Assembly (NCBI GenBank): GCA_019084245.1
Contig: JAHRFE010000028.1
Location: 310,001 to 374,000 of the forward strand
Direction: 5' to 3'
Source of the DNA: Hoeflea sp.
GTDB taxonomy: Bacteria; Pseudomonadota; Alphaproteobacteria; Rhizobiales; Rhizobiaceae
Length of the DNA stretch: 64,000 bases
The translations under genes and the position numbers were made by a program. Of this stretch, positions 12,053 to 15,861 are shown in pieces. Numbering within the stretch: the stretch's first letter is position 1; the number at the start of each line of letters is the position of its first letter. Under the pieces are notes generated by a model that searched no databases, had not been told where the DNA came from, and saw only the letters and a program-made list of their open reading frames with translations.

Positions 12053-12182
12053 GGCCCGGGCTGATCCCCGCCGTTCAGGATATTCGAACCCTTCCCCACG
12101 CCCGGCATCCCGCCCCATCTTGTTGATGGTCTGCGCAGTCGTTTCTGCGACGCGGAGGATTCAACGGGTCGTTTGTATTCGG

Positions 12183-12211
12183 TTGTATTTATAATTTATT
12201 TCTACTATAAG
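12183..12211 (+). promoter_or_regulatory. Predicted sigma70-type promoter of the peptide/radical SAM cassette
   Basis: TTGTAT (12183-12188) is followed after exactly 17 bases by TATAAG (12206-12211), inside a strikingly AT-rich tract (about 12171-12217) in otherwise GC-rich DNA. A second TATAAT at 12190-12195 overlaps. Initiation about seven bases downstream would place the following hairpin in the 5' leader. Confidence 0.55.
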
Positions 12212-12244
12212 TTTATTTCGCCTTTGAGGCATGCTACCATTGCG

Positions 12245-12274
12245 ATGGGTCCGGCCTGTTCGAACCGGGCCCAT
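12245..12274 (+). promoter_or_regulatory. 5'-UTR hairpin upstream of the peptide gene
   Basis: ATGGGTCCGG (12245-12254) pairs with CCGGGCCCAT (12265-12274) around a 10-base loop, all ten positions pairing if one G-U wobble is counted. It lies about 30 bases before the start codon and between the promoter and the AGGGAG ribosome site. The wobble fits an RNA structure on the plus strand. Confidence 0.5.
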
Positions 12275-12305
12275 ATCCAGGTTCATCGAACACAGGGAGC
12301 GAAAT

Positions 12306-12509
12306 ATGGGATCCAGAGATGCACCGGACCTGTCCCATCTGTCGGGCAGGGACATCGAGAAAGTCGCCGAAGCCATTGGAGCGGGACCGATCCGCGCGCT
12401 GATGGCGAACAAGGAAGCCATCGCCGCCATGAGCGCCGATGACATCAACAAGCTCTCCGAGCTTGCGGCGGCAACGCGGGCCAATTGCGGCGGGATCGGC
12501 TGCGGCTGA
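12306..12509 (+). CDS. Putative RiPP precursor peptide with C-terminal Cys/Gly core
   Basis: 67-residue peptide that I do not recognise as a named family. Residues 1 to about 58 look like a helical leader: acidic and Ala/Leu-rich with two similar helix-like stretches (HLSGRDIEKVAEAIG and MSADDINKLSELAAA). The tail is NCGGIGCG, with the only two cysteines at positions 61 and 66. A leader plus short Cys/Gly-rich core beside a SPASM radical SAM enzyme is the classic layout of a ribosomally made, post-translationally modified peptide. The ATG at 12306 is fixed by AGGGAG seven bases upstream; an upstream in-frame start would run through the hairpin. There is no double-glycine cleavage site before the core, and no peptidase or exporter is adjacent. 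Confidence 0.75.
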   Translation: MGSRDAPDLSHLSGRDIEKVAEAIGAGPIRALMANKEAIAAMSADDINKLSELAAATRANCGGIGCG

Positions 12510-12520
12510 CACCATTGCCT

Positions 12521-12568
12521 CGGCGGCGGTCGACATCCATCGGCCGCCGCACCGGGTCACCCGTTTTT
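12521..12568 (+). promoter_or_regulatory. Intergenic hairpin and weak terminator-like stem between precursor and maturase
   Basis: CGGCGGC (12521-12527) pairs with GCCGCCG (12543-12549). Just downstream, CGGG (12553-12556), a three-base loop and CCCG (12560-12563) run into five T residues (12564-12568). A leaky attenuator here would give more precursor than enzyme mRNA, as in many RiPP operons. The second stem is only 4 bp, so termination should be partial at most. Confidence 0.45.
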
Positions 12569-12585
12569 GAAAATGGAAGAGCGCC

Positions 12586-14025
12586 ATGTCCCCTTCGATT
12601 CCAAGCGGCACCGCGCCGCAGCCCGTACGAAATGACGCAGCGAAAGGCCGGTTCACCATCGTGTCCGGGTCGCAGGGCGACTATATCTTCTTGCCGGAGG
12701 TCTGCACGATATTCGAGGCGCCCGGCGCGGTGATCGCGGAACTCGAAGATTTCCGATCCGATGCGTTTTCAAAGAACCTGCCCGGCGAAAAACCCTATGA
12801 GGCCGCCGCGCGCAGCTTCTTTGAAAGCTTCATCGAGGGCAAGCAACCGCCGCCCGGCCCGACGACACGCGGCGACGCCGGATTGAAGGATCTGGTGCTC
12901 AACATCAGCCAGATCTGCAATCTGGCCTGTTCCTATTGCTATGCCGAGGATCTGAACAAATCCAGGAAGATCATGCTCCCCGAGACCTGCCGGGCAGCCA
13001 TTGACCGGGCGTTGCTCCTCTCCCGGGACGGATTGAAGAGCGTGAAATTCCTGGGCGGCGAGCCCGCGCTTGCGTTCCGCGAAATTTGCCTCACCGTCGA
13101 GTATGTCGAAGAGAAATGCACTGAACTCGGCTTTCCAACGCCATCCTTCGTGATCGTGACCAACGGCACTCTTGTGACCGATGAGATGATCGCCTTCTTC
13201 GCGTTGAAGAACTTTTATGTCCTGGTCAGCATGGACGGCAACCAGAGCATCCATGACACTCTGCGTCCGTTCTCGGGAGGCCGTGGCTCCTACGCCAAGG
13301 TCTCCGACACGATTGCCAAATTCCAGCAATTTGGCAGTCCGGTGGCGGTGGAGGCGGTCTACACCCGAACCCACTACCAGAACGGCGTCGGCGTCAAGGA
13401 TGTGGTCGCCCATTTGCTTGGCCTCGGCGTGCGGGAGATGCAGATCACTTTGGCGCTCGGCTCCTGGCACGGCGAAGGCGCCTATGCCGAGATCGAGGCG
13501 GTGTCCCGCGATTTCTCGGAGGTTGCGCGCGCGTGCATCCGGTCCTTCCTGTCGGACGATCCGTTTTTGCTGCGCGGCATCCAGTTCGTCATCGACGGCT
13601 TCGTCAACCGGACGAAGAATTCCCATGTCTGCGGCGCGGGCCGGAGTTTCATGGCGGTCAATTACGACGGCGAGGCATTTCCCTGCTATCTGCTGGAATC
13701 GGCGGAAACCTCCTACGGCTTCATCGGCAAGGAGTGGGATCAGGACCGCTACTCGCGGATCTCGAAAAAATTCGTCGAGAACGGAAAGGACTATCACGAG
13801 ACCTGCGGCAAGTGCTGGGCCAATGAAATCTGCCAGTCCTGTCTCGGCTCCTCGTTTCTGCTCGAGAAAAAGATCGCCAAGCCGCCGGCTTGGTTTTGCG
13901 GGGTCCAGAAAACCTTGATCTCGGCGGTTCTGGGCGAAATCGGCGATGCCCTGAACAGCCCGCAGAAACAGAGATTTCTGGAAAATCTTGCCGAATTCCT
14001 GCGCCCGCGCTTGTTCGAGGCCTGA
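12586..14025 (+). CDS. SPASM-domain radical SAM peptide maturase
   Basis: 479-residue radical SAM enzyme. The [4Fe-4S]/SAM motif is CNLACSYC (Cys111, Cys115, Cys118), with GGEP at 157-160 for SAM binding. A full SPASM-type C-terminal set is visible: Cys349, the GEAFPC turn ending at Cys367, Cys407, Cys410, Cys416, Cys419 and Cys438, enough for two auxiliary clusters. Residues 1-95 precede the radical core; the segment around GDYIFLPEVCTIFEAP resembles the small beta-rich peptide-recognition region found at the N-terminus of thioether-forming maturases (inference). It follows the precursor gene by 76 bases, with GGAAG before the ATG. Likely chemistry is a Cys-linked thioether or another C-H crosslink on the peptide tail, but the sequence does not tell which. 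It is not QueE, MoaA or anSME by context. Confidence 0.85.
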   Translation: MSPSIPSGTAPQPVRNDAAKGRFTIVSGSQGDYIFLPEVCTIFEAPGAVIAELEDFRSDAFSKNLPGEKPYEAAARSFFESFIEGKQPPPGPTTRGDAGLKDLVLNISQICNLACSYCYAEDLNKSRKIMLPETCRAAIDRALLLSRDGLKSVKFLGGEPALAFREICLTVEYVEEKCTELGFPTPSFVIVTNGTLVTDEMIAFFALKNFYVLVSMDGNQSIHDTLRPFSGGRGSYAKVSDTIAKFQQFGSPVAVEAVYTRTHYQNGVGVKDVVAHLLGLGVREMQITLALGSWHGEGAYAEIEAVSRDFSEVARACIRSFLSDDPFLLRGIQFVIDGFVNRTKNSHVCGAGRSFMAVNYDGEAFPCYLLESAETSYGFIGKEWDQDRYSRISKKFVENGKDYHETCGKCWANEICQSCLGSSFLLEKKIAKPPAWFCGVQKTLISAVLGEIGDALNSPQKQRFLENLAEFLRPRLFEA

Positions 14026-15225: not shown

Positions 15226-15861
15226 CTACATCACGTCTTCGGGCGGACGGCCTGGCCGGGGTTTGTAGGGTGAGAAGGCCCAGCCGTAGCGGATGGCGCC
15301 GCCGCGCACGGCGAAGGCCAGAATGACGCCCGCGAGCGAGGCGGCGATCAGCGGCGCGCCGATGAGGCTTGCGGCAATGAAGCCGCCGGCGCCGGCGAGT
15401 GCGGCGGACACATAGATTTCCGGGCGCATCAGCACCGAGGGTTCTCCCGACAACAGATCGCGCAGGATGCCGCCGAGCGTCGCCGTCATCATGCCGGTGA
15501 CCAGCGCCACGATCGGGGAGCCCGACAGCGCCAGCCCCTTTGCGGCGCCCATCACCGAATAGGCCGACAGTCCGACCGCGTCGAGCCAGAGCAGCAGGCG
15601 GTAGCGCGATTCAACCAGATGGGCGGTGAAATAGACGATCACCGCGACGCCGACGCAGACCAGCAGGTACTCAGGCTTTTGCACCCAGAACACCGGCGTG
15701 GCGCCCAGCACGATGTCGCGGAAGGTGCCGCCGCCGATGCCGGTGACGGCAGCCAGAAAGATGAATCCGATCATGTCGAGCTGCTTGCGCGACGCCGCCA
15801 GCGCGCCGGTGGCGGCGAAAACCGCGACACCGGCATAGTCAAGGATTTCGAGCAGGGTCAT
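15226..15861 (-). CDS. TRIC/UPF0126 family membrane channel
   Basis: 211-residue integral membrane protein with about seven hydrophobic helices arranged as a tandem repeat: the blocks GIGGGTFRDIVLG (first half) and TATLGGILRDLLSG (second half) are the duplicated glycine-rich kinked-helix motifs of this family. Bacterial and archaeal TRIC proteins form trimeric cation channels, and some UPF0126 members have been linked to glycine transport. A GGGAGAGG ribosome site precedes the ATG. No functional partner is adjacent. Confidence 0.85.
   Translation of the reverse strand: MTLLEILDYAGVAVFAATGALAASRKQLDMIGFIFLAAVTGIGGGTFRDIVLGATPVFWVQKPEYLLVCVGVAVIVYFTAHLVESRYRLLLWLDAVGLSAYSVMGAAKGLALSGSPIVALVTGMMTATLGGILRDLLSGEPSVLMRPEIYVSAALAGAGGFIAASLIGAPLIAASLAGVILAFAVRGGAIRYGWAFSPYKPRPGRPPEDVM

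Follow-up and report, generated by a model that had tools for sequence, protein, structure and literature searches.

A rare, mobile peptide and radical SAM enzyme cassette in Hoeflea that is most likely a new, very small RiPP family

Analysis of a 64,000-nucleotide stretch of Hoeflea sp. DNA (assembly GCA_019084245.1, contig JAHRFE010000028.1, positions 310,001–374,000; hereafter the window, whose positions serve as coordinates throughout) revealed a two-gene cassette, in which the gene for a 67-residue peptide (12306–12509) is followed after 76 bp, on the same (+) strand, by the gene for a 479-residue radical S-adenosylmethionine (SAM) enzyme with a SPASM region (12586–14025). We conclude that the cassette is a real, rare and mobile two-gene unit and that it most likely represents, to judge from its sequences, a new and very small family of radical SAM systems for ribosomally synthesised and post-translationally modified peptides (RiPPs) with cysteine-based tail chemistry. 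The proposal taken whole, a minimal RiPP cassette whose enzyme joins the sulphur of a tail cysteine to a non-acidic residue, we consider probable. A first-pass annotation of the window had described the two-cysteine peptide, the enzyme, their lengths and their spacing, all of which the open reading frames (ORFs) and motifs bear out. Its reading of the pair as a RiPP pathway is supported by the juxtaposition of precursor and maturase and by their joint conservation, seen for all three close enzymes. The host genome, of 4.8 Mb, belongs to the same genus as that of Hoeflea sp. MAG-81.

The peptide, MGSRDAPDLSHLSGRDIEKVAEAIGAGPIRALMANKEAIAAMSADDINKLSELAAATRANCGGIGCG, is encoded from an ATG at 12306 to a stop codon at 12507–12509 and comprises a helical-looking leader and the tail RANCGGIGCG (12477–12506, +), the presumed core, containing Cys61 and Cys66. 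It is a real gene under selection. The homologue in Hoeflea sp. MAG-81 (L004) encodes an identical protein with four base differences, all synonymous (4 synonymous, 0 replacement), and the sequence between about 12264 and the ATG is also unchanged there. The homologue in Roseovarius sp. A-2 is 73% identical, with proportions of synonymous and non-synonymous differences (pS and pN) of 0.73 and 0.17; between Hoeflea and Roseovarius the non-synonymous divergence (dN) is lower for the peptide, at 0.19, than for the enzyme, at 0.35. Conservation within the peptide is highest in the tail: in its ten codons there are six synonymous changes and no replacement, so that 10 of 10 residues are identical in Roseovarius, and the back-translated tail with its stop occurs once, against 0.00 occurrences expected from 100 shuffles. 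That the peptide is a small ORF arisen by chance next to an orphan enzyme, for which the existence of only three close copies might speak, is refuted in practice by the synonymous and replacement counts, 73% identity having persisted across families while synonymous sites became saturated; conservation at two unrelated sites also stands against it, and its probability is negligible. The synonymous bias that the first-pass annotation had set as a check on the peptide frame is clear, and its statement that no described family is known for the peptide agrees with our searches, in which no NCBIfam or Pfam family was reached and no Nif11 model of either collection matched. Matches to PDB entries (a CAP repeat and a chaperonin; E 0.003 and 0.1) were set aside as chance. 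In literature searches outside closed journals and supplements, no paper naming the peptide was recognised, and the letters of the tail brought up only a paper on keratin-associated proteins.

The enzyme contains the motif CNLACSYC (residues 111–118; 12916–12939, +), which has the CxxxCxxC spacing of radical SAM clusters and whose three cysteines are invariant in alignments A4 and A5, and it scores 60.3 bits with the Pfam Radical_SAM model (cut-off 29.5). The SPASM region (13630–13899, +) narrowly misses the corresponding Pfam model, at 21.1 bits against a cut-off of 21.5; its seven cysteines, at residues 349, 367, 407, 410, 416, 419 and 438, are invariant across the four sequences of A4 and have aligned cysteine counterparts in chain 5wgg, a SCIFF maturase. 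Both motifs, including the complete seven-cysteine set, had been recognised at first pass. The enzyme is 95% identical in L004. Among the 25 NCBIfam matches listed, of 75 families, all are radical SAM enzymes, mostly peptide or sulfatase maturases; the enzyme lies below the cut-off in every one, and the best models among them are those of the PapB, QhpD, Nif11 and SCIFF maturases. The enzyme's match in PHROGs is phrog_1802, a family of radical SAM proteins. A defence-system identity was discarded, as the only matches were weak ones to viperin, of a general radical SAM kind.

Enzymes were counted as close relatives at an identity of at least 60%, and the samples searched overlap. A scan of one genome per species across 84,980 species, using six eight-residue patterns, returned seven relatives, two of which were at or above this threshold. 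Enzyme searches gave 2/297 in the host's own family (E 1e-20; the host itself and a 32% relative), 3/18 in the genus Hoeflea (1e-10; two of them close), 20/394 in the family of Roseovarius (one at 60%, the others at 31% or less) and 2/84 in the genus Roseovarius (one at 60% and one at 34%). Profile searches with the enzyme gave 2/398 in a phylum sample, 7/385 in a class sample and 4/48 in the order of genome G808, the source of a remote relative described below. The peptide lies beside, or is paired with, each of the three close enzymes (those of the host, L004 and Roseovarius), one of the pairs being separated by an insertion sequence. Enzymes lacking a peptide had been named as evidence to look for; all three close enzymes have theirs, and the three remote members of their clade are each accompanied by another two-cysteine-tail peptide. 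The peptide alone was sought in the host genome, the genomes of L004 and L005 and a plasmid collection, and the tail pattern in viral contigs. The viral contigs held no relative of the enzyme, and their one tail-pattern match (L094) was rejected, being out of frame in a 184-residue phage ORF with no ORF of at least 40 residues ending there. Among plasmids, all 204 records with relatives of the enzyme were below 60% identity, the peptide gave only partial matches (E of at least 0.6, none covering 80% of it), and the cassette DNA found no match. An origin in phages or plasmids was rejected on these searches.

In Hoeflea, the cassette is an insertion between mutS and pfkB. Of the 18 genomes searched in the genus, 16 yielded the latter gene; 14 of them have mutS upstream of it and no cassette, and the other two are the cassette carriers, the host and MAG-81 (G701). 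Because mutS is followed by pfkB in the cassette-free relatives, a lost glnD can be discounted: the first-pass annotation expected this gene after mutS, and pfkB is found instead in 14/14 of the other genomes with both genes, so that replacement of glnD was ruled out. The interval (L053–L066) is variable within the genus. Its length in the 14 cassette-free genomes is 90–177 bp in seven, 661–762 bp in six and 1,418 bp in one; the longer gaps hold ORFs, which in five of seven (L065, L064, L060, L058 and L056) include one of 182–204 residues, about 190 in several genomes, with a P-loop-like GASG(S/A/G)GKS motif, and in L061 and L054 are shorter pieces.

The Roseovarius copy occupies an unrelated site, where the outer neighbours include CcmF beyond the peptide gene and CcmE beyond the enzyme gene. 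It is split between two contigs: on C7, 126 bp separate the end of the peptide gene from the contig end, and on C11 the enzyme gene starts 190 bp from the contig end. About 127 bp at the end of the enzyme contig recur in nine places in this genome, six at 97–100% identity and three at 70–72%. Of six loci compared, four (L039–L042, the locus itself included) have TTAA after the repeat; L043 carries a different sequence at that point, and L044 has no match to the search word. The flank on the peptide side starts TTAACCCGGATAATTCACG and that on the enzyme side, reversed, TTAACCCGAATAATTCATG. An insertion sequence with inverted ends and a TTAA target thus appears to lie precisely at the stop codon of the peptide gene in Roseovarius. 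Joining the flanks gives a peptide–enzyme gap of 63 bp. The apparent insertion sequence (L015 1701–1827 and L005 1–131) thus splits the cassette while leaving both reading frames unbroken. Neighbours checked with hidden Markov models were CcmF, CcmE, a FecCD permease, a SPASM enzyme and a metallo-hydrolase. The last three are encoded about 6–11 kb from the peptide (L092 2179–7787), and we take the SPASM gene there to be PqqE-like and the metallo-hydrolase gene PqqB-like.

In trees of the radical SAM core, the three close enzymes group with those of L050 (G808), L013 (G258, of the genus Hoeflea) and L023 (G629). Support for this clade is 95/88 in a 33-row tree and 90/87 when rows L048, L074, L019, L020, L029 and L027 are removed and L085–L088 added; the five-row clade has support of 86/83 without L023 and 97/93 without L013. 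Loci L085–L088, from the order of G808, fall outside it. Each member has a small peptide with a cysteine-bearing tail: RANCGGIGCG in the three close members, GGCFIGCSGAAS upstream of the enzyme in L013, SSCGVVVCGNGAAV directly upstream in L023, and KNFCCSGVG downstream in L050. With the rule that an adjoining small peptide has its only cysteines, two or three, within the last 22 residues, such a peptide was found at 6/6 clade loci and at 1/43 other radical SAM loci. The latter count derives from 46 outside loci, of which L007, L069 and L086 gave no frame and were left uncounted; the single positive, in L085, is the terminal part of a 345-residue ORF, in the same frame. No tail in the clade has an Asp or Glu from its first cysteine onward.

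The remote cassettes differ in layout. In L013, a 73-residue peptide (1179–1400) precedes the SPASM enzyme (1552–2685) by about 150 bp, with a transglutaminase-like gene upstream. In L050 (reverse complement, 1177–2622 and 2692–2880), the peptide gene lies downstream of the enzyme gene with a hairpin between them. At L048 (contig C46 of the MAG-81 genome G701, listed contamination 9%), an 89-residue ORF with four cysteines, missed by the rule, immediately precedes an unrelated SPASM enzyme.

The top-scoring maturase model among the matches listed is that of PapB, which acts on PapA in the freyrasin ranthipeptides (NF047865). Like PapA, the Hoeflea peptide is a small cysteine-containing peptide with a leader. 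The host enzyme nevertheless scores 177.4 bits, far under the cut-off of 340, and QhpD proteins outscore it on this model with 255–275 bits; the scores of the other clade enzymes are 175.5 (Roseovarius), 136.9 (L050), 120.5 (L013) and 149.8 (L023). According to PMC9413430, PapB joins Cys to a downstream Asp or Glu in Cys-X3-Asp/Glu and did not process a transposed peptide with Asp before Cys. The Hoeflea peptide offers no such Cys-Xn-Asp/Glu acceptor: neither Asp nor Glu occurs beyond Cys61, and the acid closest to the tail, Glu52, lies nine residues ahead of Cys61. The QhpD/PeaB enzymes align with the host enzyme over 339 columns at 29% identity (hhalign probability 99.9%) and have the same radical SAM and SPASM cysteines. 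They differ in that the host enzyme reaches only 148.3 bits against the TIGR03906 cut-off of 453 and lies outside the QhpD branch in the trees, and in that peaA, qhpC and peaD are not beside the cassette. The bonds in QhpC run from Cys to Asp/Glu carbons, as described in PMC8172795. If a thioether is formed, the acceptor must differ from those of PapB and QhpD because no Asp or Glu follows the first cysteine.

The SCIFF maturases (ScfB/CteB) include the best solved relative (PDB 5wgg; profile E 9e-30), with all seven SPASM cysteines aligned. The host enzyme scores 144.7 bits against the TIGR03974 cut-off of 425, and its peptide has two cysteines, whereas SCIFF has six in 45 residues. With the model of the Nif11-like maturase NlpM (TIGR04064), the host and Roseovarius enzymes score 147.2 and 158.2 bits, short of the cut-off of 518.7, and the cassette peptide differs in having no Nif11 match. 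The enzyme may work as the PapB and QhpD maturases do, as a putative relative and not an established member. PMC9062424 reports 22 new pathways, among which the present system could be.

Two alternatives bear on these comparisons. The enzyme might carry out other radical chemistry, such as carbon–carbon bond formation, epimerisation, dehydrogenation or cleavage, leaving the cysteines free of crosslinks, to serve the product as metal or thiol ligands. The missing acidic acceptors of the nearest characterised enzymes and scores below every cut-off among the NCBIfam matches listed would be in keeping with this; against that, two cysteines are the one feature common to all four tail types of the clade, and the four highest-scoring NCBIfam models belong to maturases that NCBI links, by description or by placement, to cysteine-peptide or thioether systems. 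We regard other chemistry as unlikely, though the least so of the alternatives set out here. Alternatively, the enzyme's substrate might be another protein, as it is for QhpD, whose target is the structural subunit QhpC, and the peptide would then serve as a subunit or a regulator. QhpD/PeaB proteins do make up the bulk of the better-scoring relatives: in the class-sample profile search, 6/6 non-self matches are QhpD by TIGR03906 (722–744 bits for five and 721 for one), and RiPP peptides beside these relatives were rejected on that account. But the two unrelated sites share no further conserved partner, and it is in the tail that the peptide is most conserved; a different substrate is accordingly a very improbable explanation.

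We favour the interpretation that the peptide is a precursor, in which residues 1 to about 57 would form a leader recognised by the enzyme and RANCGGIGCG the core. The CNLACSYC cluster, together with SAM, would generate a 5'-deoxyadenosyl radical that takes hydrogen from a tail carbon; with help from the SPASM clusters, this carbon would then be bonded to the sulphur of Cys61, of Cys66 or of both, at a loss of 2 Da per bond. Since neither Asp nor Glu follows the first cysteine of the tail, a non-acidic acceptor is predicted; Gly, Ile or the preceding Asn or Ala could serve, unlike in PapB and QhpD, and a sactipeptide-type bond from Cys sulphur to an alpha-carbon would be compatible with so glycine-rich a tail. 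The leader would be cut by a protease encoded elsewhere, and the product might stay in the cell or leave by an unlinked route. Speaking for this interpretation as a whole are the pairing of the two genes at two unrelated sites, mutS/pfkB and beside ccmE/ccmF, the alignment of the seven SPASM cysteines with those of a thioether-forming maturase, and a hairpin between the genes in both genera.

This hairpin, in the peptide/enzyme gap of the window (12523–12550, +; 11-bp arms and a 6-nucleotide loop), has a z-score of −2.35, with 2/200 shuffles equally stable. L004 retains it (z −3.90, 0/200 shuffles), and it is matched by hairpins in Roseovarius, of different sequence (z −2.81, 3/200), and between the enzyme and peptide genes of L050 (z −2.77, 2/200). 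It could set the ratio of peptide to enzyme and may raise it.

Several observations weigh against the RiPP crosslinking proposal. The close members in the searched data number three only, two of them from sister Hoeflea genomes, and the tail modification is a prediction. No leader-binding (RRE) domain was recognised in residues 1–100 of the enzyme, either by Pfam or by profile matching to QhpD N-termini; against the PDB this segment gave only antibody-type chance matches, and it evolves fast, with 34% identity to Roseovarius. RRE domains are common in RiPP pathways and not universal. Among the neighbouring ORFs scanned, a part of the total that takes in some of L092/L093, no linked leader protease or exporter was recognised beside the cassette in Hoeflea, as the first-pass annotation had remarked, or in Roseovarius; such genes are optional in RiPP pathways. 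As to the clade, its remote members lie on long branches, and the tree program warns of long branches meeting; the clade peptides were already known when its rule was set, many of the 43 outside loci being related QhpD loci; and peptide-to-peptide similarity across it is weak, 1, 9, 15 and 20 of 2000 shuffles scoring as high. The intergenic hairpin gives no signal in L013 (z −0.39) and has no space in L023, where the genes adjoin without a gap.

The lack of a recognised exporter would also suit a peptide that is the carrier of a small intracellular redox cofactor, released once the enzyme has worked on the tail, as in the pyrroloquinoline quinone (PQQ) or mycofactocin systems. The tail, invariant in amino acids between two families, unlike many antimicrobial cores, and the presumed PqqE-like SPASM gene and other pqq-like genes 6–9 kb from the Roseovarius peptide point the same way, but no dehydrogenase or extra maturation gene is linked in Hoeflea and the distribution is very patchy, which makes a cofactor improbable. 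If the crosslinking proposal is right, it adds a compact two-gene radical SAM peptide system in the Alphaproteobacteria, one whose acceptor would not be the Asp/Glu side chain of the closest characterised enzymes, so that a single mass spectrum could show a different bond; the invariant tail and the missing exporter raise the question of an intracellular role. More speculatively, and with odds that we put clearly below even, the cassette may belong to an undescribed proteobacterial RiPP group with tails CGGIGCG, CFIGCSG, CGVVVCG and FCCSGVG and a SPASM clade apart from PapB, QhpD and SCIFF, making Cys-to-non-acidic crosslinks, here an invariant CGGIGCG ring, in an intracellular product and not a secreted antibiotic.

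Shine–Dalgarno-like sequences can be read directly ahead of both genes, GGGAG (12295–12299, +) six bases before the peptide ATG and GGAAG (12575–12579, +) before the enzyme gene. The AT-rich stretch 5' of the cassette (12170–12240, +), designated a promoter at first pass, is confirmed in its composition (31% GC against 64.8% for the window); it may be a promoter region, but a scan for sigma-70-like sites found none. A 5' hairpin at 12243–12273 was rejected as not significant (z −1.38 and −0.48). As for known RNA elements, no Rfam match was listed at gathering level, and one to SNORD95 (E 0.4) was dismissed as chance.

The neighbours of the cassette in Hoeflea are malic enzyme, MutS, PfkB, a PF03458 protein, GrpE, HrcA and RNase PH. 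The PF03458 gene (15226–15861, opposite strand), next past pfkB, encodes an ordinary membrane protein of the glycine transporter/TRIC type. On the rhizobial plasmids of L068, L070 and L071, a SPASM enzyme gene lies beside a gene for tryptophan 7-halogenase or a FAD monooxygenase, together with two hypothetical genes.

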